This document shows positions 2,815 to 15,289 of a stretch of DNA of 33,229 bases, piece after piece. Numbering within the stretch: the stretch's first letter is position 1; every line of letters begins with the position of its first letter. Made by a program: the position numbers and the translations under genes. The notes beneath the pieces were generated by a model. It searched no databases. It was not told the DNA's origin and saw only the letters and a program-made list of their open reading frames with translations. Origin of the DNA: Rhizobiales bacterium CCH3-A5. Its GTDB lineage: Bacteria; Pseudomonadota; Alphaproteobacteria; Rhizobiales; Beijerinckiaceae. The stretch covers positions 1-33,229 of the forward strand of contig LSIB01000118.1 in assembly GCA_001556025.1 (NCBI GenBank), read 5' to 3'.

Positions 2815-3543
2815 ATGAACGAGACGGCGGCAGCGAACCGCGAGCGGCTTCTTGTGGTCGAGGACGACCCCGTCACGCGCGCGATGATCGCCGGCTATTT
2901 CAGCGATCAGGGGTTTCGCGTCGAAGAGGCCGACAGCGTCGCAGGCGCGCGGCGGGCAGTGAGACGGGTCAAGCCCGAGCTGGTCTTCCTCGACGTCGTG
3001 CTGCCCGACGGCGACGGCTTCGATTTCGCCAAGGAGCTGCAGGGCGTTTCGGATGCCGGCATCATCTTCGTGACGCGGCGCGACACCGACATCGACCGCA
3101 TCGTCGGGCTCGAACTGGCGGGAGACCATTACGTCTCCAAGCCGGTCAACCTGCGCGACCTGCTGGCGCGGGCGCGCTCGCTGCTGCGCCGGCGCAGGAT
3201 CGAACGCGAGACGGCGCGCCGCTCGACCACGATCACGTTCGGCCCGTTCATGATCGACCTGCTCAGACGCGAACTCGCGACCGTCAACGGCGATCCGATC
3301 CGGCTGACGCGCGGCGAGTTCGATCTGCTGGCGGCGCTCGTCGACAGCAATGGCCGGCCGCTGAGCCGGGATTATCTGATCGAGGTCGTCAGCAACCGCC
3401 ATGGCGAGGTCGACGCCCGCACCGTCGATGCGCTGGTCGCCCGGCTGCGGCGCAAGCTGACCGGAGCCGGCGAACCCGGCGTGATCGCGACCGTCAGCGG
3501 CATCGGCTACAAGCTCGGGATCTTCGCCGAGCGCAACGCCTGA
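2815..3543 (+). CDS. OmpR/PhoB-family response regulator, TorR-like
   Basis: A 242-residue two-domain regulator. The receiver domain (about 11-128) has the acidic pair in VVEDDPVTR, the phospho-acceptor Asp60 in LVFLDVVLPD and Lys109 in YVSKPVNLRDLL. The stretch GIIFVTRRDTDIDRIVGLEL closely resembles E. coli TorR. A winged-helix DNA-binding domain follows (about 140-238; RLTRGEFDLLAAL, RTVDALVARLRRKL). The start at 2815 places the receiver domain at the usual distance. ATG 2806 is nearly equivalent, and ATG 2713 would add 34 residues without domain similarity; none has a strong ribosome-binding site. The gene is convergent with its presumed kinase and their 3' ends overlap by 37 bp, which is unusual for a cognate pair. 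Confidence 0.85.
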   Translation: MNETAAANRERLLVVEDDPVTRAMIAGYFSDQGFRVEEADSVAGARRAVRRVKPELVFLDVVLPDGDGFDFAKELQGVSDAGIIFVTRRDTDIDRIVGLELAGDHYVSKPVNLRDLLARARSLLRRRRIERETARRSTTITFGPFMIDLLRRELATVNGDPIRLTRGEFDLLAALVDSNGRPLSRDYLIEVVSNRHGEVDARTVDALVARLRRKLTGAGEPGVIATVSGIGYKLGIFAERNA

Positions 3544-6230
3544 GCCGGCCGGGCGGCTGCCGCCGGCCGCCCGGCCCGCAGGCTCTCCAGCGCGTCGGTG
3601 CGCGCCTGAGCCAGACGCGCCACCGAGTCCGACAACTCGTCGAGGGGCGCGCTGGCTGCGGCGGTCTCGATCGCAGTGGCCTGCGACACCGCCTGCCCCA
3701 GCCCCAGCGCCGAGGCCGAGCTGGCGAACTGGTGGGCGGCGCGCTCCACGCCCTTGCGGTCGGCCGCGCCCAGCGCCTCGCGCAGGGAGGCGATCTGCGC
3801 CTCCGACACCGTCGCGAACAATGCGAACAACTCGCCCAGCCGCGAACCGCCGATCAGACGCTCCTGCTGGTCGAGAAAGCCGCGATCGACCGCGCTGTCG
3901 GTCATGAGCGTCACGCCATGAACCCGGCCCCTGCGCTTGCGGCCGCGTCCGAGCGCCTGCAGCAGCGAAGCCGAGGTCGCGGGCTTGGACAGGATCGTCC
4001 CAAGTCCCGCCTGGCGCAGGCGGCGCATGGTCTCGGGCGAGACGTCCGCGGTCAGCGCCACGATCTCGGGCTGCGCGATTGCGGCCATGGCGCGGATCGT
4101 CTGGGCTGTCTCGATGCCGTTAATGCCGGTCATATGCATGTCGAGCAGCACGACATCGACGCGCTGGCGGGCCAGCAAAGCCAACGCCGCCTCGCCCGAG
4201 GCCGCCGTCAGTGCGCGGTGGCCGGCCTTGCCGATCATGATGCGCGCGACCTCGCGCGTCACCGGCTCGTCGTCCACGACCAGAACGGTCAGAGGCTCGT
4301 CGATCTCCTTGCCGGTCTCGGCCGAGGCCGAGGCGCGCGCGGCCTCGGCCGGCAGCCGCACCGTGAAGGCGCTGCCCTCGCCCGGCGCGCTCTCAAGCGA
4401 CAGGGTTCCGCCCATCAGCGCCACCAGCTTGCTGCAGATCGCGAGACCAAGCCCGACGCCGCCCGACCGCCGGCCGGTTTCCGGATCGACCTGAACGAAA
4501 TCCTGGAAGATGCGGCCCTGCATGGTGGGCTCGATGCCGATGCCTGTGTCGCGCACGGTGATGAAAAGGTTCGGCGGCTGCTCCGGCCCCGCCGACGCGA
4601 ATTCGGCGCGGAGCGTGATCTCGCCCGCATCGGTGAAGGCCACGGCATTGCTCAGAAGATTGAGCACGACCCGGTTGATTCTGGCCGGGTCGCCATGGAG
4701 CCTGGCTTTGGCGACGCCATCCAGCTCCAGCTTCAGCTCGAGGCTCTTGCGCTCGGCGGACGGGCGCAGCAAGGCGGCGGCGGCCGCGAGCAGCGGGCCC
4801 GGCTCGTAGTCGCGCAGGTCGAGCGCCTCGGTGCCGGCCTCCAGCCGCGACAGGTCGAGGGTGGCGTTGGCGAGGTTGATCAGCGTCTCGCCCGAAACCG
4901 CCGCCATCTCGACCAGGCGTCGATCGCGCTGGCTCATGCGCTTGCGGTCGAGGATTTCGAGCACGCCGAGCACGCCGGACAGAGGCGTGCGGATGTCGTG
5001 CCCGACGACCGCGAGGAAGCGAGATTTCGCCCTGGTCGCTTCTTCGGCGACCATGCGCGCCTGATCGGCTGCGCGCTGGCCCGCCGAGGCCTGGTCGAGC
5101 GCCAGCGCCAGCGCGGCCGTTCGCTGCGCGACCTTGTCCTCCAGCGCGGCGCGGCCCTCCTCCAGACGCTCCGCCATCAGGTTGAACTGCGCACCAAGTT
5201 CCTCCAGTTCGTCGCCCGTGTCGATCGCGATGCGCTCTTCGAGCCGGCCTTCGCCGATCCGCGCCGCGCCTTCGCTCAGCGCGCGGACGGGTGCGACGAG
5301 CCGCCGGCTCAGCAGGACGGCGCCGATCACCGCCAGCAGCAGCGCCGCGGCCAGCACGCCGACAGAGCGGATGATCGAGGCGTAAATCGGCGCGAAGGCC
5401 TCCCACCGGGGCAGATCGACGACAACGAACCAGTCGAGATCGGGCACAGCCGCGAGCACGGACAGGACCGGCCGGCCCTCCATGTCGATTGTGGAAAGGC
5501 CGGGGCTTTGCGCGCCGCGCGACGCATCGCCGCCGGCATGGGCCCTGAGCAGCGGCGAGAGATCGGTGTTGCGCAGGACGAAGCGCAGGTCGGGATGGGC
5601 GATCAGACGGCCGGAGCGCTGCACCGCGTAGGCCCGCCCCGCCTCGCCGACCTTCAGCCGTGTCACCAGTTCGCGGATGAAGGTCAGATTGACCGTGGCG
5701 AGCGCGACGCCGCCGCTGGCGGAGCGCCTGGCGAGCCGCATGTGAGGCTCGGAGCCGCGCCTGAACTCGATCGCGCCATGGGCGGATCCATCGCGCAGCG
5801 CCTCCCTGAAGAGCGCATCGCTCGACCAGTCACGGCCCGAGCCGATGCTGTCCCGTTCCGAGCGCGACAGCGCGATGATCTCGCGCCCGTTCCGATCGAC
5901 CTGCCTCAGCTCGATAATGGACGAAATCTGCCGCAGGAGGCGCAGCCCGTCGAGCCGCGCCTCCTCGCCAGGCGAGCCGGTCTCGCTGGATGCGGCCGCC
6001 CAGTCGAGCTGCCGGACGATGTCGCCGATGAAGCCGCCGATGCGCTGGGCCGCCGACTGCGCCTGTTCCTGCTGGACGCGCACGACGAGGGCGCGCTGAT
6101 CGGAAAACGCGAAGAAGGTGCCGATGAGCCCGTTCAGCCCGAGCGCCAGCGCCAGCGCCGAGGCGACGAAGACCGTGTACTTCCGGGCAAGCGGCCCGCG
6201 CCGCCGCGCCGCCTGAGCCGGCGGGCTCAC
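3507..6230 (-). CDS. Hybrid sensor histidine kinase with dCache, HAMP, HisKA, ATPase, receiver and HPt domains (TorS-like)
   Basis: A 907-residue inner-membrane phosphorelay kinase. Order: TM1 about 18-40; periplasmic dCache-like sensor about 41-285 (with VGEAGRAYAVQRSGRLIAHPD); TM2 about 287-307; HAMP about 308-358; coiled coil; HisKA with phospho-acceptor His411 in GHDIRTPL; ATPase domain with N box (LNLLSNA), G1 DTGIGIEP and G2 GVGLGLAI; receiver domain with Asp697 in VVLLDMHM; C-terminal HPt with His833 in AAHQFASSASALG. This is the full His-Asp-His relay needed to phosphorylate a separate regulator, presumably the adjacent OmpR-type protein. It starts at GTG 6230, overlapping the stop of the upstream binding-protein gene (GTGA). 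The size and order match TorS (about 914 residues), but the sensor domain differs. Confidence 0.9.
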   Translation of the reverse strand: MSPPAQAARRRGPLARKYTVFVASALALALGLNGLIGTFFAFSDQRALVVRVQQEQAQSAAQRIGGFIGDIVRQLDWAAASSETGSPGEEARLDGLRLLRQISSIIELRQVDRNGREIIALSRSERDSIGSGRDWSSDALFREALRDGSAHGAIEFRRGSEPHMRLARRSASGGVALATVNLTFIRELVTRLKVGEAGRAYAVQRSGRLIAHPDLRFVLRNTDLSPLLRAHAGGDASRGAQSPGLSTIDMEGRPVLSVLAAVPDLDWFVVVDLPRWEAFAPIYASIIRSVGVLAAALLLAVIGAVLLSRRLVAPVRALSEGAARIGEGRLEERIAIDTGDELEELGAQFNLMAERLEEGRAALEDKVAQRTAALALALDQASAGQRAADQARMVAEEATRAKSRFLAVVGHDIRTPLSGVLGVLEILDRKRMSQRDRRLVEMAAVSGETLINLANATLDLSRLEAGTEALDLRDYEPGPLLAAAAALLRPSAERKSLELKLELDGVAKARLHGDPARINRVVLNLLSNAVAFTDAGEITLRAEFASAGPEQPPNLFITVRDTGIGIEPTMQGRIFQDFVQVDPETGRRSGGVGLGLAICSKLVALMGGTLSLESAPGEGSAFTVRLPAEAARASASAETGKEIDEPLTVLVVDDEPVTREVARIMIGKAGHRALTAASGEAALALLARQRVDVVLLDMHMTGINGIETAQTIRAMAAIAQPEIVALTADVSPETMRRLRQAGLGTILSKPATSASLLQALGRGRKRRGRVHGVTLMTDSAVDRGFLDQQERLIGGSRLGELFALFATVSEAQIASLREALGAADRKGVERAAHQFASSASALGLGQAVSQATAIETAAASAPLDELSDSVARLAQARTDALESLRAGRPAAAARPAQALRSAKIPSL

Positions 6231-7213
6231 GAAACGATCCGCGCCGCGCGCACGCGCATCGAGAACGGGATCGTGAGGCCGAGCGAGGCCGCGACGCGCT
6301 CGTTAACGACGAGTTCGAAGGAGCGCGAGAACTGCACCGGCAGTTCGGCGATGCTCGCGCCGCGGAAGATCAGATCGACATAGCCGGCGACCATCTCGTC
6401 GGTGTCGGTGCGCCCGCCGGTATAGGACATCAGGCCGCCATTGAGCGGAAAGGTCTCGTAGCAGTACATCGCCGGCATGCGATGGGCGGTTACGCCAGCG
6501 ATGAAGGCCTTCGCGGCACGAAAGGTGAAGCTGTCGGGCGGGAAGAACAGCCCGGTCCCCGGGATGCGCGCGAGCTCGCCGAGAACGGCGTCGATCCGGC
6601 CGGCGTCGGACACCGGCGCGCCGACGATCGCGACGCCGACCTCGGCGCCATGACGGCGCAGGGCCTCCAGATAGGTCTCGCCGGCCGCCGGCGCCGTCGC
6701 CGGATTGAAGACGACCCCGATCCGCCCGACGGACGGGGCCAGTTCCTTCAGCAGCTCGATCCATTTTCCGGCGATGCCTGGCTCGTTGTTGCTGAAGCCC
6801 GTGGCGTTGCCGTCGGGCCGCTCCAGCGAGCGCACGAAGCCGCTGCCGACGGGGTCAGAGGCGGTGGTGAACAGGACCGGGATGGTCTTCGTCGCTGCGA
6901 GGACGGCGGCGGTTTCCGTGCTCGAGCCTGCGACGATCAGGTCCGGCGCCAGCGCGACGGCCTCCGTGACGGCCCTTTCCAGTGAGCCGGGCTCCGCCGT
7001 CACCACCCGAAACTCGAAACGCAGGTTCCTGCCTTCGGCCCAGCCGCGCTCCAGCAGATTGCGGCGAAGAGCCGCCATGCGCGACGCCGCGACGGGATGG
7101 TCGAGCGGGATGCCGAGCACAAAGGCGATCAGCTTCCCGCGACCTGCGGCCGACAGCGGCCCGCGCCAGAACGGGAGCGATGCGAGCGACAGCAGGGCTG
7201 AACGGCGCAGCAT
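6227..7213 (-). CDS. Periplasmic ABC-type substrate-binding protein (ABC_sub_bind family), probable kinase co-sensor
   Basis: A 328-residue protein with an N-terminal signal-type sequence (MLRRSALLSLASLPFW, cleavage near residues 22-25) and the fold and motifs of the PF04392 binding-protein family (PDLIVAGSSTETAAVLAATK, IPVLFTTASDPVGSGFV, NATGFSNNEPGIAGKWIELLKEL, RIGVVFNP). No permease or ATPase gene lies nearby. Instead its stop overlaps the start of the hybrid kinase. By analogy with TorT-TorS, it probably binds a ligand in the periplasm and signals through the kinase instead of feeding a transporter (inference). The ATG at 7213 begins directly at the signal sequence. The ligand is unknown. 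Confidence 0.8.
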   Translation of the reverse strand: MLRRSALLSLASLPFWRGPLSAAGRGKLIAFVLGIPLDHPVAASRMAALRRNLLERGWAEGRNLRFEFRVVTAEPGSLERAVTEAVALAPDLIVAGSSTETAAVLAATKTIPVLFTTASDPVGSGFVRSLERPDGNATGFSNNEPGIAGKWIELLKELAPSVGRIGVVFNPATAPAAGETYLEALRRHGAEVGVAIVGAPVSDAGRIDAVLGELARIPGTGLFFPPDSFTFRAAKAFIAGVTAHRMPAMYCYETFPLNGGLMSYTGGRTDTDEMVAGYVDLIFRGASIAELPVQFSRSFELVVNERVAASLGLTIPFSMRVRAARIVS

Positions 7214-7322: not shown

Positions 7323-8504
7323 TCAGCGTTGTGCGGTGAGCGCTTTCATACGTTCCAACGCAGCATCGACATCGCCTGCGTTCAGCGCGACGCCGAAGCC
7401 GAAGCGCAGCACGTCGCCGCGATGGTCGCTGGCGATGCCGAGCGCGGCCAGCGCCGTCTCCAGCGCGCCGGCATGCGGCGTGCGGAAGGCGAGGAAATTG
7501 CCGTGCGCGGCGGCGTGATCGAGCGGCGTGATCAGGCGATCGCGACTCAGATCGTCACGGCCGAGCCCATCGAGGCCGGCGAGAAACCGCTCCATCAACG
7601 CGGTCGCATGACGATGGACGACGCCTGCGTCGAGCCCCTGCCCGTCGAGCCAGCCGAGGACGGCGCGCATCCTGTAGAGGCCCGAGGGATCGAAGGTCGC
7701 CCCGAGGAAGCGCCCGCCATCGGCCGGATAGCCGATGCTGCTGCCGGCCGGCGCGGCAAGCGCCCCGAAGGCGGCGAACCAGCCGGTGTCGCGGGGGCGC
7801 GGGCCGTAGCCCGGCGGGCAGTGCATGAAGCAGCAGCCCTCGCCGGACATGGCGTATTTGTAGCCGCCGGAGATGTAGAAGGCGCGGTCGGCGATGGCGG
7901 ACAGGTCGGTCGGCAGCGCCAGGTAGCCGTGATAGCCGTCGATGGCGACCAGCGTGTCGCGCGACGGGACGGCTGCGACAAGCGCCGCGAGATCGCCCGT
8001 CGTCGCGCCCGACGAAAACAGCACCTGGCTAATGAAGACCAGATCGTGCCCGCCAGCCGCGATCGCCGCCGCGAGCCGGTCATGCAGGGTCGCCAAGGGT
8101 TCGGCCGCGACCTCGTCCACGATCACGAGACCGTCCTCCGCCAGCCGCGTCAGTTGTCGCCGGGCGGTGTGGAACTCGGCGCCGGTGACCAGGACGTGCG
8201 GGATGCGGTCATGGGAAACGCAGGAGAGCAGCCGGCGCAGGAATTCGTGGGTGTTGGGCGCAAACGCGATCGTTGCGGCGCCGGGCAGGGCGAGATGGCG
8301 CGCGATGCCAGACTGGACGGCGGGAATGATCTCGCCGAACACGACGCTCCATTTGTCGCCCGCGAGCCGGGCCGCGTCGCTCCAGGCCGCCTCCTGCGCC
8401 GCGAACGTAACGTCCGGCCAGTCGTGATGGCTGTGGGCCGCGAGGTTAATGCGCTCCGGCGCAGCCTGGCGGAAGCGCGCGAAATGACCCGTCCAGTCGC
8501 CCAT
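7323..8504 (-). CDS. kynU: Kynureninase-like PLP-dependent enzyme (class V aminotransferase fold)
   Basis: A 393-residue type-I-fold PLP enzyme. The predicted Schiff-base lysine is Lys216 in SGGYKYAMSGEG, and the preceding DGYHGYLALP supplies the cofactor-binding Asp. Kynureninase cleaves kynurenine to anthranilate and alanine. The assignment rests on fold and on strict coupling to tryptophan 2,3-dioxygenase: the dioxygenase TGA overlaps this ATG (TGATG). A GTG one codon upstream (8507) is an equally coupled alternative. The sequence departs from well-known KynU proteins in places, so it could be a divergent relative acting on another 3-hydroxy or keto-aryl amino acid. No kynurenine formamidase gene is present in the window. 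Confidence 0.7.
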   Translation of the reverse strand: MGDWTGHFARFRQAAPERINLAAHSHHDWPDVTFAAQEAAWSDAARLAGDKWSVVFGEIIPAVQSGIARHLALPGAATIAFAPNTHEFLRRLLSCVSHDRIPHVLVTGAEFHTARRQLTRLAEDGLVIVDEVAAEPLATLHDRLAAAIAAGGHDLVFISQVLFSSGATTGDLAALVAAVPSRDTLVAIDGYHGYLALPTDLSAIADRAFYISGGYKYAMSGEGCCFMHCPPGYGPRPRDTGWFAAFGALAAPAGSSIGYPADGGRFLGATFDPSGLYRMRAVLGWLDGQGLDAGVVHRHATALMERFLAGLDGLGRDDLSRDRLITPLDHAAAHGNFLAFRTPHAGALETALAALGIASDHRGDVLRFGFGVALNAGDVDAALERMKALTAQR

Positions 8505-9583
8505 CACACCGCCCCATAGCTGAAGCCCATCCGCGCCCTGACGGCGTCCGGCAGCGCCGGCAGATCGCGCCGGCTGAGCAGATAGGTCGAGAGATGGAAC
8601 AGGTCGATGAAGATGCGGTGCTTCTCGGCGGTGGCCTTGAGATAGCCATGGCCCGACGAGCCGCCGGTTCCCGGCCTGATGCCGATCATGCGCTCGACCA
8701 TCAGCGCATGGCGCAGCCGCCAGAGCGTCAGGCTTTCGTCGATGTCCATCAGCGCCTGCAGCAGCCGGAACGGCAGTTGCAGCACCGGCATGTCGCGATA
8801 GAGCGAGATGAAGATCGCGGCTTCGATGGCGCGCGGCGACATGCGCCAGCTCGAGCTTGCGGCGGAGGGCTCGAACAGCGCCTCGAAGCGGGCGAGCGCC
8901 TTCTCGATCGCGGCCGCGTCCTGCCGGCGCTGCTCTTCCGGCAGCGAGGCGTCCGCGCCGACCTGGCCGGCGTCGCGCCTGAGCGCGGCGACGACCGCCG
9001 CGCGGTAGCTTTCGCGGAAACTATAGTCGCCGAGCGCCACGAAAGGCGTTCGCGCCAGCCATGCGTCGAGTTGGGTCAGGAGCGAAACATGGGCGTTGGC
9101 GTCGAGTTTGGCCCGGTCCGCCGGGGCCAGCCGCTCGCGCATGCTTTGCTCGTCGATGCGCAGGCGGCGCTCGTCATGGAGGCCGAGCCGCGCCTCGATC
9201 AGCCTGAACTGGACCGACTGGAAGCCAGAGGCCGGGGTCAGCAAATCGCGGAAATCGAGGAAGCCCGCCGGCGTCATCGTCTCCAGCACGTCGAGCTGGC
9301 CGACGAGCAGCTTCAGGATTTCATGGATGCGGGCGAGTCCGGCGACGATGCGGCCAAGATGCTCGTCGGCCACGCTCTCGTCGGCGAAATCGGCCTGGAT
9401 GCGGTCGAGCTCGTGCAGGATCTGCCGGAACCAGAGCTCATAGGCCTGATGGACAATGATGAAGAGCATCTCGTCATGGGCGGGTGCGCCCACCCTGTCG
9501 CTCTCGGGCGCCTGGCAGGAGAGCAGCCGGTCGACCTGAAGATAGTCACCATAGGACAATCTGCGCGCCGCATTCGCCATCAT
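8504..9583 (-). CDS. kynA: Tryptophan 2,3-dioxygenase
   Basis: A 359-residue cytosolic heme enzyme that converts L-tryptophan to N-formylkynurenine. The family motif HDEMLFIIVHQAYELWF is at about 36-52. The heme ligand aligns with His292 (RLRHALMVERM). The substrate-loop GTGGSSG follows, with Thr306 exactly 14 residues after the histidine as in human and Xanthomonas enzymes. The C-terminal block IDLFHLSTYLL is also conserved. Start is ATG 9583 (ATG 9580 equally possible) with GGGACGG just upstream; a longer open frame to 10201 has no similarity. The A/T-rich stretch just upstream (9608-9626) is the likely promoter area. It forms an operon with the kynureninase-like gene. Confidence 0.93.
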   Translation of the reverse strand: MMANAARRLSYGDYLQVDRLLSCQAPESDRVGAPAHDEMLFIIVHQAYELWFRQILHELDRIQADFADESVADEHLGRIVAGLARIHEILKLLVGQLDVLETMTPAGFLDFRDLLTPASGFQSVQFRLIEARLGLHDERRLRIDEQSMRERLAPADRAKLDANAHVSLLTQLDAWLARTPFVALGDYSFRESYRAAVVAALRRDAGQVGADASLPEEQRRQDAAAIEKALARFEALFEPSAASSSWRMSPRAIEAAIFISLYRDMPVLQLPFRLLQALMDIDESLTLWRLRHALMVERMIGIRPGTGGSSGHGYLKATAEKHRIFIDLFHLSTYLLSRRDLPALPDAVRARMGFSYGAV

Positions 9584-9844: not shown

Positions 9845-10507
9845 ATGCGGCACAGCGTGATCACCAAGGCAGACGCCGTCCCGGCGGGAACGCTGCAGCG
9901 TTTCGCGTCCCTGCAGGACTGGCGTCGCCAGATCGCCGATCTGTACGCTGCGGTTCGTGCCCTGCCGCCCGAGGAGGGGTTCGGACATTGGCGCGGCGTC
10001 CGCGACCGGCTCTTCCGCGAGCATGCGCAGTCGCCGCTCGCCGCAACGCGCCGCAGCCAGTTTTCCGGCATCAGCTACTACCCCTACGATCCGGCCCTGC
10101 GTTTCGAGGTGGCGTTGGAGCCGGCGCATGGCCGAGAGACGATCCGCGTAGAAGCCGGCAAGGACGGGCTGATGACGCTCCTGCCCTACGCCATCACCCA
10201 CGGGCTGGAAGGCCCGCTCGGCAGGGAGCTGACGCTGTACTGGATCGAGGGATATGGCGGCGGCACTTTCCTGCCTTTCGGCGACGCGACCAATGGCGAG
10301 GAAACCTTCTCCGGCGGGCGCTATCTGCTCGACACGATCAAGAGCGCCGATCTCGGCGCGACGCCGGCGGGCCGGACGATCCTGGATTTCAACTTCTCCT
10401 ACTATCCGTCCTGCGCCTATTCGGAGGCCTGGGTCTGCCCGCTCTCGCCCTTCGAGAACCGTTTGCCGGTCGCTGTACGCGGCGGCGAGCGCGATCCGCT
10501 GTCGTGA
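9845..10507 (+). CDS. DUF1684 family protein
   Basis: A 220-residue protein with the conserved C-terminal core of the DUF1684 family: TFLPFGDATNGEETFSGGRYLL, then ILDFNFSYYPSCAYSEAWVCPL and a final ENRLPVAVRGGE. The N-terminal half resembles family members with a helical lead and a beta-rich FSGISYYPYDPALRF block. No signal peptide is visible, so it is probably cytosolic. The biochemical function of the family is not established to my knowledge. Start ATG 9845 has GAGGA eight bases upstream. It is divergent from the tryptophan dioxygenase and single-gene. An EcfG-type promoter upstream suggests stress or stationary-phase expression. Confidence 0.85.
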   Translation: MRHSVITKADAVPAGTLQRFASLQDWRRQIADLYAAVRALPPEEGFGHWRGVRDRLFREHAQSPLAATRRSQFSGISYYPYDPALRFEVALEPAHGRETIRVEAGKDGLMTLLPYAITHGLEGPLGRELTLYWIEGYGGGTFLPFGDATNGEETFSGGRYLLDTIKSADLGATPAGRTILDFNFSYYPSCAYSEAWVCPLSPFENRLPVAVRGGERDPLS

Positions 10508-10606: not shown

Positions 10607-10640
10607 TGACCGTCAGATCGACCCGAGAAGGATGAGACCC

Positions 10641-11525
10641 ATGCGCCTCGCCAGAACGTTTTTCGTCGCCGCCGCGCTGATCGCGGCGGGGCTCTCCACC
10701 GCCGCCGCGCAGACGATCAAGATCGGCTCGAAGAATTTTACCGAGCAGTTCGTCGTCGCCGAGCTTTATGCTGCCGCGCTGGAAGGCGCGGGCTTCAAGG
10801 TCGAGCGCAAGATCAATCTCGGCGGCACGCTCGTTGCCCATGAGGCGCTGAAGAGCGGCGCGATCGACCTCTATCCCGAATATACCGGCACCGGGCTGAA
10901 CGCCGTGATGAAGGCGCAGGGCGTGACCGAGACCGACCCGGAAAAGGTCCGTTCCATGGTCAAGGCCTTCTACGAGAAAGAGTTCAATCTGACCTGGCTC
11001 AAGCCGTCGGGCATCAACAACGGCTACGCCATCGCGGTGCGCCCCGAAACGGCCAAGGAATACAACCTCAAGACTCTCTCCGATCTCGGCAAGGTCGCCG
11101 GCAAGCTCCGGCTTGGCGCAGGCACCGAATTCGTCGACCGCCGCGACGGCATCAAGGGGCTGGAGGAGGTCTACGGCATCAAATTCGCCGAGTTCAAGCA
11201 GTTCGCCGCCCTGCGCCTGCGCTATGAGGCGCTGAACCAGAAGCAGATCGAGGTCGCCAACGGCTTTTCGACCGACTGGCAGATCGCGGCGGAGAAGTTC
11301 GTCGCGCTCGACGACGACAAGTCGCTGTTCCCGCCCTATTTCCTCGCTCCCGTGGTGCGTCGCGAGATCGAGGCCAACCCGAAGATCGTCGCGATCCTCG
11401 AAAAGGTCGGGGCGGCGCTGGACAATCCGACGATGCAGGAGCTGAACCGGCAGGTCGAGGTCGACAAGAAGGAGCCGCGCACCGTGGCGGCGGCCTTCCT
11501 CAAGGCCAAGGGGCTGGTGAACTGA
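10641..11525 (+). CDS. OsmF/OpuCC-type quaternary-amine ABC substrate-binding protein
   Basis: A 294-residue periplasmic binding protein of the glycine betaine/choline (OpuAC) family. A signal peptide (about 1-23, ending STAAAQ) precedes the hallmark start of mature family members, IKIGSKNFTEQFVVAELYA. Other family blocks are INLGGTLVAHEALKSGAIDLYPEYTGTG and VANGFSTDWQIA. I chose ATG 10641 over ATG 10632 because AAGGA ends eight bases before 10641 and would overlap the earlier codon. It is the first gene of a five-gene operon including two permeases and an ATPase. Family members bind betaines through aromatic cages. The co-operonic lyase homologue suggests an aromatic betaine such as ergothioneine (inference). 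Confidence 0.88.
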   Translation: MRLARTFFVAAALIAAGLSTAAAQTIKIGSKNFTEQFVVAELYAAALEGAGFKVERKINLGGTLVAHEALKSGAIDLYPEYTGTGLNAVMKAQGVTETDPEKVRSMVKAFYEKEFNLTWLKPSGINNGYAIAVRPETAKEYNLKTLSDLGKVAGKLRLGAGTEFVDRRDGIKGLEEVYGIKFAEFKQFAALRLRYEALNQKQIEVANGFSTDWQIAAEKFVALDDDKSLFPPYFLAPVVRREIEANPKIVAILEKVGAALDNPTMQELNRQVEVDKKEPRTVAAAFLKAKGLVN

Positions 11526-13087
11526 GCGCGGCTGCGGAGGCGGCCGGGAATGCGGAACGCCACCCCGAGGTCGTCATCGGCGGCGACGCGACCGGCCACG
11601 AGACCATCTTCGCGATCGCACTCGATTTCGCGCCCGTTCGTCTGCATGAATCGCTCGGCCCGCGTCTGGCGGCCGCGCGGGCCGTCGTGCTGCGCGCGCT
11701 GGCGCGCGGCGAGAGCGTCTATGGACTGACGACGGGGCTGGGCGCGGCGGTCGATACGCGGCTCGACGCCGACGTCATCCCGGCCTTTCAGGCGCGTGCG
11801 ATCCGGGCGCGGGCCGTGGGCGTCGGTGAGCCGTTTTCGACCGCCGAGGTGCGCGCAACGCTGGCGGCGCGCCTCGTCGCCATCTGCCACGGCGCGTCCG
11901 GCCTTTCGCCTGAACTGGCCGCGACGATCGCCGCCATGCTGAACGCCGGCGTCCATCCGGTGGTCCGGCGCATCGGCTCTCTCGGAGAGGCCGACCTAAG
12001 CCCGCTCGCGCAGGCTTTTCTGCCGCTCATCGGCGAGGGCGAGGCGGAGTTCAGGGGCGCGGTCATGCAAGGCAGCGAGGCCATGCGTGCGGCGGGCATC
12101 GCACTGCCGGCGCTCGGCCCCAAGGATGGACTGGCCTTGCTCAACGCCAATGCCCAGAGCGTCGGGCTAGCCGCGTTGGCGGTCGACGCCATGCAGAAGG
12201 CGCGGCATGCCGCCCTGATGGCCGGCGCGCTGTCGTTGGAAGGTTTTCGCGCCAATCTGTCGCCGCTCGACGACGATCTTGCCGTCTTGCGGGCCATGCC
12301 CAGCCACAAGGTCGGGGTCAGGTTCCTGCACAACCTTATGTCCGGCAGCGATCTGTTCGAGCCGGGCCGCGCACGACGGCTGCAGGATCCGATCTCCTTT
12401 CGCTGCCTCGCCCCCGTGGCGGGACATGCCATCAACGCAATCGGGGCCGCGAGCCTTGCCGTCGACAACGAACTCGCCAGCGCGCCCGATAGCCCGGCCG
12501 TGCTGGTCGAGCGCGACGCGATCCTCTCCAGCGTCAATTTCGATACGACCGAGCTCGCCCTTACCTTCGAGGCGGCTGGGCTCGCGCTCTCGCATCTCGC
12601 CGCGACCTCGGCGGCGCGGATCATGAAGCTGATGTCACCGGCATCCTCCGACCTGCCGCGCTTTCTCACCCGCCATGGCGGCACGCATGCAGGTTTCGCA
12701 ACCTCGCAAAAGACGGCTGCCGCGCTGGAGGCCGAAATCCGCCACCTCGCCTTGCCTCTGGGCGCGATGACGCTGCCGGTTGCAGACGGCGTCGAGGATT
12801 ATGCGCCGATGACGCCGGCCATCGTCGAGAAGACGCGTGCCATTGCGCTGCGCATGACGCGGCTTGCTGCGATCGAGTTGGTCGTCGCGGCGCAAGCCGT
12901 CGATCTGCGCGGCGGGATCACGCTCGGCCGCGGCACGGCCGCCGCGCACGGCTTCGTGCGCCGCCATGTCGCCCGCCTCGACGACGACCGGCCGATGGGG
13001 CGCGACTACGAGGCGCTGGCGCTGGCGATCGAGGAAGGCGGGCTCATGCCGGCCGAGATGGCGGCCGGCGATGGTGCCGGAGCATGA
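11522..13087 (+). CDS. MIO-less aromatic ammonia-lyase homologue, candidate ergothionase
   Basis: A protein of about 521 residues of the histidine/phenylalanine ammonia-lyase fold (PF00221). Family motifs seen: catalytic-loop Tyr67 in VYGLTTGLG, LLNANAQSVGLAAL, LQDPISFRC with the carboxylate-binding Arg, and VEDY with Glu425. The MIO-forming Ala-Ser-Gly is absent: residues 155-158 are GEAD within GSLGEADLSPLAQ. Lys397 (SQKTAAAL) occupies a position that is usually hydrophobic in HAL. Ergothionase, which eliminates trimethylamine from ergothioneine, is a HAL-fold enzyme reported to work without MIO. Coding similarity (VVIGG...VRLHESLGPRLAAARAVV) extends upstream of the first GTG (11687). The only plausible start there is CTG 11522, sharing bases with the preceding TGA and with AAGGGG eight bases upstream. 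It overlaps the next gene by ATGA. Confidence 0.7.
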   Translation: MSAAAEAAGNAERHPEVVIGGDATGHETIFAIALDFAPVRLHESLGPRLAAARAVVLRALARGESVYGLTTGLGAAVDTRLDADVIPAFQARAIRARAVGVGEPFSTAEVRATLAARLVAICHGASGLSPELAATIAAMLNAGVHPVVRRIGSLGEADLSPLAQAFLPLIGEGEAEFRGAVMQGSEAMRAAGIALPALGPKDGLALLNANAQSVGLAALAVDAMQKARHAALMAGALSLEGFRANLSPLDDDLAVLRAMPSHKVGVRFLHNLMSGSDLFEPGRARRLQDPISFRCLAPVAGHAINAIGAASLAVDNELASAPDSPAVLVERDAILSSVNFDTTELALTFEAAGLALSHLAATSAARIMKLMSPASSDLPRFLTRHGGTHAGFATSQKTAAALEAEIRHLALPLGAMTLPVADGVEDYAPMTPAIVEKTRAIALRMTRLAAIELVVAAQAVDLRGGITLGRGTAAAHGFVRRHVARLDDDRPMGRDYEALALAIEEGGLMPAEMAAGDGAGA

Positions 13088-13713
13088 GCTGGGCGATCGA
13101 GAACTGGGATCGGCTGCTGATCGCGCTCTGGGAGCATGTCCGGCTGGTCGGCGCGGGGCTTCTGATCTCGCTCGTCATCGGCCTGCCGCTCGGCGTGCTC
13201 TCGGCGCGCAAGCCGCGGTTCTATCTCGCCGTGCTGCTGGTCTCCGGCGCGCTCTACACCGTGCCTGCGCTGGCGATCTTTGCGCTGCTGATCCCGGTGC
13301 TGGGGCTCGGCTTCGGCCCGGCGGTGGTCGCGCTGGTGATGTATGCGCTGCTGATCATCATCCGAAACGTCGCGACCGGCCTGCGCGAGATCTCGCCCGA
13401 CATCCTCGACGCCGCCGACGGCATGGGCTTCGGCCGCTGGCGCAGGTTGTTTGCCGTCGAATTGCCGCTGGCCCTGCCGGTGATCATCGCGGGCATCCGC
13501 ATCACCGTGGTGACGCAGGTGTCGGTCGCGACGGTGGCCGCCTTCATCAATGCCGGCGGGCTCGGCGACATCATCTTTCAGGGCATCACGCAGGATTTCG
13601 GCGAGAAGGTCGTCATCGGTGCGCTCGCGACCTCGGCGCTGGCCATCGCCTGCGACGAGAGCCTGCGCCGGGTCGAGGTGGCCTTGCGCGCCGCACAGGC
13701 GGAGAGCGCCTGA
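13084..13713 (+). CDS. OpuCB-type ABC permease, quaternary-amine transporter
   Basis: A 209-residue inner-membrane permease of the betaine/choline ABC family with about five to six hydrophobic helices. The EAA-type cytoplasmic loop is in DAADGMGFGRWRRLFAVELPLALPVIIAGI, and AAFINAGGLGDIIFQGI is typical of OpuCB/OsmW/OsmY proteins. Its ATG overlaps the lyase TGA (ATGA), which places the lyase firmly inside the transporter operon. It pairs with the next permease to form the transmembrane channel. The binding protein is separate, unlike some Gram-positive homologues where it is fused to the permease. Confidence 0.9.
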   Translation: MSWAIENWDRLLIALWEHVRLVGAGLLISLVIGLPLGVLSARKPRFYLAVLLVSGALYTVPALAIFALLIPVLGLGFGPAVVALVMYALLIIIRNVATGLREISPDILDAADGMGFGRWRRLFAVELPLALPVIIAGIRITVVTQVSVATVAAFINAGGLGDIIFQGITQDFGEKVVIGALATSALAIACDESLRRVEVALRAAQAESA

Positions 13714-14348
13714 TGTGGCAATGGATCGGCGACAACCCCGGCATCTTCGGCACGGCGGTCAGCAACCATCTCCAGCTTTCGGGCGTGGCGCTCGCCGCCG
13801 TGATCCTGATCGCGCTGCCGCTCGGGCTCGCCCTGACACGCCGGCGCGGCCTGGCGAATGCCGCCATCGCCATCGTCAACATCCTGCGCACCGTGCCCTC
13901 GCTGGCGCTGCTGGTGATCATGCTGCCGCTGCTGGGGACGGGCTTCCTGCCGTCCGCCGTCGCGCTCGTGCTCTACGGGCTTCCGGCGCTGCTGCTCAAC
14001 ACCTATACCGGCCTTGTCGAGGTCGACGCCGACATCGTCGAGGCGGCGCGCGGGCAAGGCTTGTCCGACCGGCAGGTGATGACCCGGATCGAGATCCCGC
14101 TCGCCTTGCCGGTGATCTTCGCCGGCATCCGCACGGCCGCGGTGCAGATCGTCTCGGCCGCTACGCTGGCCGCCTTTATCGGCGGCGGCGGTCTGGGCGA
14201 ACTGATCACCGCCGGCATGGCGAATTTCAACTTCCCGCAACTCGTCGCCGGCGCGGTCGCCGTCGCCCTGCTGGCGCTGTTGGTCGAGCTCGCTTTTGCG
14301 GGGCTCGAACGGCTGCTGACGCGGCAACTGCGCATGGGTGCTGCATGA
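13713..14348 (+). CDS. Second OpuC-type ABC permease, quaternary-amine transporter
   Basis: A 211-residue permease paralogous to its upstream neighbour. It shares NILRTVPSLALLVIMLPLLGTGF, the EAA loop EAARGQGLSDRQVMTRIEIPLALPVIFAGI and the AAFIGGGGLGELI block. The start ATG overlaps the previous stop (TGATG). Two non-identical permeases imply a heterodimeric channel, as in OsmY/OsmW and OpuCB/OpuCD. No extra domain is visible. Confidence 0.9.
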   Translation: MWQWIGDNPGIFGTAVSNHLQLSGVALAAVILIALPLGLALTRRRGLANAAIAIVNILRTVPSLALLVIMLPLLGTGFLPSAVALVLYGLPALLLNTYTGLVEVDADIVEAARGQGLSDRQVMTRIEIPLALPVIFAGIRTAAVQIVSAATLAAFIGGGGLGELITAGMANFNFPQLVAGAVAVALLALLVELAFAGLERLLTRQLRMGAA

Positions 14349-15289
14349 CGATCCGGTTCGAAGCCGTCACCAAGCTCTTTCCCGGCGTCGCGCGCCCGGC
14401 CGTCGATGCGCTCGATCTGACGGTCGACAAGGGCAATATCTGCGTGCTGATCGGCCCGTCCGGCTGCGGCAAGACCACGACGATGCGGATGGTCAACCGG
14501 CTGATCGAGCCGACGTCGGGCCGCATCCTCGTCGGCGACCGCGACGTCACCCAAGGCGACCCGGTCGAACTGCGCCGTCATATCGGCTACGTCATCCAGC
14601 AGATCGGCCTGTTCCCGCATATGACGATCGCGGAGAACGTCGCGACGGTGCCGAAGCTGCTCGGCTGGCCGGAGGCCCGCATCACGGCGCGCGTCGCGGA
14701 GATGCTGGCGCTGGTCGGGCTCGATCCCGGCCAGTTCCTGAGCCGTTATCCGCGCCATCTTTCGGGCGGGCAGCGCCAGCGCGTCGGCGTGGCGCGCGCG
14801 CTGGCCGCCGATCCGCCTGTCATGCTGATGGACGAGCCGTTCGGGGCGGTGGATCCCGTGGTGCGTGGCCGGCTGCAGGACGAATTCCTCGCCATTCTGA
14901 AGCGGCTGGAGAAGACCGTGATCCTGGTCACGCACGATATCGACGAGGCGATCCGCATGGGCGACGTCGTTGCGATCATGCGCGACGGCAAGCTCGTGCA
15001 GTACGATACGCCTGACCGGCTGCTGGCGGCGCCCGTCAACGGTTTCGTCGCGGATTTCGTCGGGGCCGACCGCGCGTTGCGGCGGCTCTCGCTGGTCAGG
15101 GCCGGCGACCTCGCCGAGCCCGGCGAGGCGAGCGCCGGGCCGCGCCTGCCGGCGGAGGCCAATCTGCGCGAGGCGCTCGCTGTTCTGCTCGCAAACGGCG
15201 CGGACGAAGCGACACTCACCGGCGCGGACGGCACGGCGATCGGCAAGGTGACGCTGGCGGCGATCCGCGCGCGCGGCGCCGCCGCCTGA
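14345..15289 (+). CDS. ABC transporter ATPase, quaternary-amine (OpuCA/OsmV type)
   Basis: A 314-residue ATPase. Walker A GPSGCGKTT is at 37-45, followed by Q-loop YVIQQIGLFPHMTI, signature LSGGQRQRVGVARAL, Walker B VMLMDEPFGAVDP and the H-loop VTHDIDEA. The C-terminal extension after about residue 240 (FVGADRALRRLSL, then a short CBS-like segment) is typical of OpuCA/ProV-type proteins and may be regulatory, though it is shorter than a full CBS pair. Start ATG overlaps the permease stop (ATGA). It ends the operon, with only four bases before the convergent antiporter gene. Confidence 0.92.
   Translation: MTIRFEAVTKLFPGVARPAVDALDLTVDKGNICVLIGPSGCGKTTTMRMVNRLIEPTSGRILVGDRDVTQGDPVELRRHIGYVIQQIGLFPHMTIAENVATVPKLLGWPEARITARVAEMLALVGLDPGQFLSRYPRHLSGGQRQRVGVARALAADPPVMLMDEPFGAVDPVVRGRLQDEFLAILKRLEKTVILVTHDIDEAIRMGDVVAIMRDGKLVQYDTPDRLLAAPVNGFVADFVGADRALRRLSLVRAGDLAEPGEASAGPRLPAEANLREALAVLLANGADEATLTGADGTAIGKVTLAAIRARGAAA

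Follow-up and report, generated by a model that had tools for sequence, protein, structure and literature searches.

A detailed inspection of a 33,229-nucleotide stretch of DNA (referred to as a whole as the window), positions 1 to 33,229 of contig LSIB01000118.1 (assembly GCA_001556025.1) of Rhizobiales bacterium CCH3-A5, revealed an operon of five overlapping genes. These encode a quaternary-amine binding protein, a homologue of aromatic ammonia-lyases, and the two permeases and the ATPase of an ATP-binding cassette (ABC) transporter. An earlier note on this DNA had proposed that the operon imports ergothioneine or another trimethylated aromatic amino acid and releases trimethylamine from it. 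The genes of the operon and its upstream neighbour are the following:

9845..10507, + strand: DUF1684 protein (Pfam PF07920, 124 bits), upstream neighbour of the operon
10632..11525, + strand: OpuC/ProX-type periplasmic quaternary-amine binding protein (PF04069 OpuAC, 223 bits)
11522..13087, + strand: aromatic-lyase homologue free of methylidene-imidazolone (MIO), predicted trimethylamine-lyase (PF00221 Lyase_aromatic, 388 bits)
13084..13713, + strand: ABC permease 1 (PF00528 BPD_transp_1)
13713..14348, + strand: ABC permease 2 (PF00528 BPD_transp_1)
14345..15289, + strand: ABC ATPase of the ProV/OpuCA type (PF00005; TIGR01186 (proV), 308 bits against a cut-off of 327)

The five overlapping genes were confirmed by Pfam and NCBIfam matches and by the junctions read from the sequence: CTGA (11522-11525), ATGA (13084-13087), TGATG (13711-13715) and ATGA (14345-14348). 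The position of the lyase gene between those of the binding protein and the permeases, linked to the next gene by the first ATGA, is as the earlier note had described it. The binding protein has in-frame ATG codons at 10632 (the first) and 10641 (the second, which the earlier note had chosen). The lyase frame contains no ATG, GTG or TTG between the preceding stop codon, ending at 11227, and the GTG at 11687, which falls within the conserved lyase fold. The likeliest start is the CTG at 11522, which overlaps the stop codon of the binding protein gene as CTGA, with the sequence AAGGGG located 8 bases upstream of it. An aaCTGA overlap of the same kind occurs in 10 of the 14 loci inspected, and in seven of these 10 (the window, L001, L002, L004, L005, L006 and L016) no ATG, GTG or TTG precedes the conserved APVRL segment. 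It is probable that the CUG start of the lyase is conserved across its relatives.

The histidine ammonia-lyase (HAL) fold covers the full length of the window lyase, but the alignment shows that the MIO tripeptide Ala-Ser-Gly (ASG) is absent and that GE-AD, one residue shorter, stands in its place. The protein scores 335 bits with the NCBIfam hutH model, which is under the cut-off of 539. Its best sequence match in the PDB is the ergothionase of Treponema (6s7j; E 2.9e-73, compared with 8e-56 for the best HAL), and the same structure ranks first in Foldseek, in agreement with the MIO-free HAL-fold enzyme envisaged in the earlier note. A scan of genome contigs yielded 79 loci; 39 of the 76 aligned lyases lack the MIO tripeptide and 37 contain it. 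A homologue search (the best 120 of 2017 proteins) served as a source of names and start sites only. Further PF00221 lyases without Ala-Ser-Gly are encoded at L171:13441-16505 and L177:7279-8841 and in L068, L071, L074 and L077-L079. Three such additional lyases (two in L171, one in L177) lie less than 5 kb from a gene of the ornithine-cyclodeaminase (OCD) family.

A tree was built from 67 hand-chosen rows, with L037, L070 and L076 omitted as broken or partial and others as near copies. The clade of the window lyase (98/93) lies outside the MIO-dependent enzymes, as the earlier note would have it, but it is also separate from the characterised Treponema ergothionase (TdErg). The latter groups with the lyases of ert clusters (90/95), on long branches (TdErg and L061) flagged as unsafe. 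The window lyase and TdErg, for which four catalytic residues have reportedly been described, share a Lys in QKT and a Glu in ED(Y/H). They differ in the NRG motif, in which the window lyase has Thr in place of the Arg of TdErg, and at HAL position 83, where the window lyase has Arg and TdErg His. We take this position to be part of the ring-selectivity pair (compare His89 of RsTAL, putatively the equivalent residue). Arg is found there in 49 of 52 aligned lyases and His in L182, L190 and L197; because of these three, Arg83 was dropped as a strict marker of partnership with OCD and kept as a hint.

The residue roles of the binding protein were mapped on EgtUC, as given in PMC9732360. The window protein retains K242, T296, N339, Y341, E375, R379 and Y443 (EgtUC numbering), and keeps the aromatic cage for the betaine and the carboxylate ligands. 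It differs from EgtUC by Phe in place of Y419 and by the substitutions F293Y, G244F, Y337I, I243N and T274G. The complete set of binding protein, permeases and ATPase, together with the aromatic cage, identifies an OpuC-type quaternary-amine ABC importer, whereas the EgtU-type importer suggested in the earlier note is not supported, since the specificity residues of EgtU (G244, and F293 with Y337) are replaced. Six aligned relatives (L012, L018, L022, L184, L189 and L193) likewise have Phe in position 244 and Tyr in position 293, and the cage is not kept in the protein of a Streptomyces locus (L196). Judged by these residues, the window protein should bind a betaine with a carboxylate group; they do not tell which one.

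The gene order binding protein-lyase-permease-permease-ATPase recurs in Bosea, Alsobacter, Enterovirga, other alphaproteobacterial metagenome-assembled genomes, NC10 and Burkholderiales, and is therefore not due to chance. Several Rhizobium-type loci carry a similar transporter upstream, followed by two luciferase-type monooxygenase genes and OCD, and then the lyase. The order in plasmid pRL12 of R. johnstonii and in Martelella is hutC-lyase-binding protein-OCD-PhnD-permease-permease-ATPase. With a Rhizobium lyase as query, 69 plasmid records, 67 of them from Rhizobium, gave matches of E 1e-80 or better, and many of the listed matches are annotated as hutH or histidine ammonia-lyase; MIO loss was checked among them for L189, L192 and L193. 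Databases appear to mislabel lyases of the window type as histidine ammonia-lyase.

For counts at genus level we used 61 genomes of the genus to which G001, the nearest relative of the window, belongs, a set from which the window's own assembly is absent. A MIO-free lyase is encoded in 26 of them (all 26 checked), not counting five matches of 32-34% identity that bear ASG (G026, G031, G034, G047 and G055). EgtD (hercynine synthase) is over its cut-off in one of the 61, on contig 25 of G001, a genome that also carries the lyase. Other genes found beside members of the lyase set encode (i) an MttB-family methyltransferase, adjoining the lyase in L021 (Pfam), L062, L162 and L163 (49-71% identity), (ii) a fatty-acid-desaturase-family protein, near OCD or the lyase in L174, L178, L182, L021 (PF00487) and L062, and (iii) transporters that, on visual inspection of the gene calls, seem to be of peptide type, next to some clade members.

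Relatives of the operon have a near-constant partner, an OCD gene (PF02423), which recurs beside them. This gene is located outside the window and was therefore hidden from the earlier reading. The nearest solved relatives of its product are archaeal alanine dehydrogenase and pyrroline-2-carboxylate reductase. OCD is often accompanied by a PhnD-like gene (PF12974), whose product has no evident signal peptide and is closest, among solved structures, to the AioX/ArrX binding proteins. OCD is present in 24 of the 26 genus genomes with the MIO-free lyase and in none of the 35 without it (Fisher p 5e-15, not corrected for relatedness). Both genomes with the lyase but not OCD, G030 and G060, are assemblies of about 160 and 520 contigs. 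In G001 the lyase and OCD are unlinked (contigs 38 and 18), so linkage alone does not explain the co-occurrence. The OCD and lyase genes overlap or directly adjoin each other in Rhizobium, Sinorhizobium and Rhodobacteraceae. At class level (385 genomes) OCD was found in all 11 genomes with a lyase-model match of at least 464 bits and in 16 others; this count relies on a gap in scores (at least 464 against at most 430 bits, with G533, at 430, scored as lacking), and MIO loss was checked for some of the 11. A Rhodococcus match to OCD (L198:9001-9789), where no gene is listed, comprises query residues 70-332 only and adjoins PhnD-like and MIO-type HutH genes. A search of the open literature joining ergothioneine and ornithine cyclodeaminase, with subscription papers outside its coverage, returned a cyanobacteria review only.

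The genes downstream of the lyase step were sought with profiles. Thiourocanate hydratase is over its cut-off in none of the 61 genus genomes, each of which has a weaker match at the level of the urocanate hydratase family (not scored there against the HutU model). A HutH-like PF00221 match of at least 567 bits is present in 59 of the 61, and in G030 and G060 only in pieces. Within the phylum, thiourocanate hydratase is over its cut-off in five of 398 genomes. Four of these five neighbourhoods (L149-L152) come from the same order of bacteria as the window organism. Beside the hydratase gene they carry lyase, DUF917, ErtD-like and ErtE-like genes and lack OCD; the lyase encoded there is also free of MIO, but remote from the window clade.

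Genes of the ordinary histidine pathway, by comparison, recur near the window-type system. Among 74 long loci with the lyase and/or OCD (31+13+20+10, many of them close relatives), eight of differing lineage (L019, L022, L062, L172, L184, L191, L197 and L198) have hutH and/or hutU next to the lyase and/or OCD or no more than 8 kb away. OCD and the PhnD-like gene lie inside a complete hut operon in L191, L197 has the order OCD-hutU-MIO-free lyase, and in L172 hutU is followed, some 200 bases on, by an OCD that is more distant (57% identity). The HutU proteins of L022, L172, L191 and L197 score 876-967 bits with TIGR01228 and are under both thiourocanate cut-offs, and HutH of L019 is over its own; the hut genes of L062 and L184 were assigned by identity, and that of L198 by identity and the ASG motif. 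A HutC-type repressor is encoded near the lyase or OCD in L189, L193, L195 and L197.

Putative sulfite exporters form a further group of neighbours. The lyase has a YeiH-family gene directly beside it in L160 and L164 (genus genomes G048 and G005) and in L190 (Polaromonas), and one 4-10 kb away in L189 (R. johnstonii) and L196 (Streptomyces); a LysR gene accompanies the YeiH gene in all of these except L196. Scored with TIGR00698, the YeiH protein of Polaromonas is over the cut-off and that of L189 is not; the L160 protein matches PF03601. No further locus in the neighbourhood scan gave a YeiH match above 50 bits. TauE/SafE-type genes are near the lyase in two loci only, L012 of Alsobacter (Pfam) and L021 of Rhodospirillaceae (35% identity). 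YeiH with LysR has been described in Hyphomicrobium as a probable sulfite exporter and sensor (PMC12423496), and TauE is taken as a sulfite exporter in sulfonate catabolism (PMC12421959).

Taken together, these data make it likely that the window operon imports an imidazole betaine and eliminates trimethylamine from it. With less assurance, we consider it somewhat probable that this betaine is ergothioneine sulfonate and that OCD is the next enzyme. OCD-type enzymes reduce a C=N carbon carrying an anionic group, a pattern into which a 2-sulfoimidazole would fit, with sulfite as the leaving group. The sequences themselves show the operon, the absence of MIO, the fold and closest relatives of the lyase, its neighbours and its co-occurrence with OCD. 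We infer that trimethylamine leaves, that the substrate has an imidazole scaffold and bears a sulfonate group, and what OCD does, and propose that (i) the binding protein and the ABC transporter would import the betaine, most likely the sulfonate of ergothioneine, its oxidised form, (ii) the MIO-free lyase would eliminate trimethylamine to give a 2-substituted urocanate (2-sulfourocanate), (iii) the NAD(P)H enzyme of the OCD family, encoded apart from the operon and frequently along with the PhnD-like protein, would move a hydride to C2 and expel sulfite, leaving urocanate, and (iv) sulfite may exit through YeiH or TauE-type exporters. The pathway probably ends in ordinary histidine breakdown, the urocanate being degraded by the Hut enzymes.

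Hercynine (histidine betaine) would offer a shorter route, in which the lyase yields urocanate and trimethylamine directly and the Hut pathway completes the degradation. This would suit the hydratase matches of the genus, none of which is at thiourocanate level, the eight loci with hut genes close to the lyase and/or OCD and the abundance of hercynine in oyster mushrooms (PMC12785439), but it leaves the near-obligate OCD partner and the sulfite-exporter neighbours unexplained, and we regard it as unlikely. Two findings weigh against ergothioneine sulfonate. YeiH-family matches, none of them over the cut-off, occur in 59 of the 61 genus genomes; YeiH presence was rejected as a pathway marker, and the argument from sulfite exporters is therefore one of adjacency only. 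In addition, a Deinococcales locus (L061) combines an ert-like cluster, whose three enzymes are all under their cut-offs, with a MIO-free lyase and an OpuC-like transporter. This locus speaks for ergothioneine itself, whose thiourocanate OCD would desulfurise reductively, releasing sulfide and replacing the hydratase route, as do the closeness of the lyase to ergothionase, the OCD partner and the lack of a hydratase over the cut-off. Such a reading is likewise unlikely, however: the EgtU-specific residues are replaced, the ert lyases of the same order group far away and belong to a separate pathway that lacks OCD, and the nearby exporters suit sulfite better. Ergothioneine as the direct substrate is not supported, and the ordinary route from it fits less well than the reading above, because thiourocanate hydratase is over its cut-off in none of the 61 genomes and the ert clusters of the same order have a distant lyase and lack OCD.

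A betaine of another aromatic amino acid (hypaphorine or tyrosine betaine) is very improbable as the substrate. Genes for a tryptophan 2,3-dioxygenase (PF03301) and a weakly matching kynureninase-like protein (7323-9436, - strand) lie just upstream of the operon, and Bosea includes legume-nodule isolates. These genes, however, adjoin the operon only in the window and L001/G001, for which reason the tryptophan link was rejected; they are several kb away in L010, L011, L017 and L038, and no tryptophan-dioxygenase-type gene was found in the remaining loci of the 31-locus neighbourhood set. Elsewhere the linkage is to hut, and the partner genes point to histidine/urocanate metabolism instead of the hypaphorine that the earlier note had admitted. 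It is likewise hardly probable that the lyase removes something other than trimethylamine while the importer supplies an unrelated compound. The reaction is predicted from sequence evidence, related MIO-free lyases (L171, L177 and an actinobacterial group) have no known reactions, and some clade members sit beside the peptide-type transporters mentioned above; but the operon with its betaine-type importer is conserved from NC10 to Rhizobium, and the nearest solved relative of the lyase is ergothionase. The core idea of the earlier note thus stands, with partial support, and its substrate assignment and pathway need revision.

In the surroundings of the operon, a DUF1684 gene occupies the matching upstream place in Bosea-type and Alsobacter loci (L001-L012, L016, L017 and L038), and the opposite-strand gene beyond the ATPase encodes a YbaL-type efflux protein (NCBIfam) outside the operon. 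A hybrid sensor kinase (3507-7213, - strand) resembles TorS, the sensor of trimethylamine N-oxide (TIGR02956, 369 bits, under the cut-off of 676). Its gene overlaps an ABC_sub_bind gene and is located a few kb from the predicted trimethylamine-producing operon.

According to a 2026 paper (PMC13405746), ergothionase is confined to a few genera, and the BLAST search made there gave only annotations as histidine, phenylalanine or tyrosine ammonia-lyase. The genes of the route proposed here occur in Bosea, on Rhizobium plasmids, and in Burkholderiales, NC10 and actinobacteria. We tentatively suggest a widespread aerobic route from oxidised ergothioneine to trimethylamine, sulfite and urocanate through three parts that have gone unrecognised: a lyase without MIO that is annotated as hutH, a C2-desulfonating OCD reductase and a PhnD-like protein. 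If this is true, bacteria would turn over ergothioneine from fungi, and its oxidation product, much more commonly than thought and would yield trimethylamine, sulfite and Hut intermediates, with no need for a thiourocanate step. A simple test by annotation would be to look for hutH homologues without Ala-Ser-Gly in genomes carrying OCD. Expulsion of sulfite from an imidazole ring by an enzyme of OCD fold would be a reaction new to this family, unless it is already shown by the ergothioneine-sulfonate catabolic pathway that Yan reportedly described in Agrobacterium radiobacter in 2022, whose chemistry is probably the same.

Among known systems, the ergothionase of Treponema denticola (6s7j, 6s7q) resembles the window lyase in its HAL fold, the lack of the MIO tripeptide, the NAQ and QKT segments and the FRC motif, although the two are only about 31% identical and fall into separate clades, and the genus has no thiourocanate hydratase over the cut-off. 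HutH shares the fold and the database name of the relatives, but the window lyase lacks ASG and MIO. The EgtU/EgtUV importer belongs to the same quaternary-amine binding-domain family and has the cage and carboxylate residues in common with the window protein; it is a fused protein, whereas the window encodes a separate binding protein and two permeases, with the substitutions listed above. The ert cluster (thiourocanate hydratase NF058530, ErtD and ErtE) shares a MIO-free lyase (L149-L152) and, in L061, an OpuC-like transporter with the window-type system. In clusters L149-L152 the hydratase gene is accompanied by hydantoinase-like, carbamoylase-like and DUF917 genes, and they have neither OCD nor a match to an OpuC-type binding protein or permease, while the window-type system is distinguished by the presence of OCD and the absence of the hydratase.

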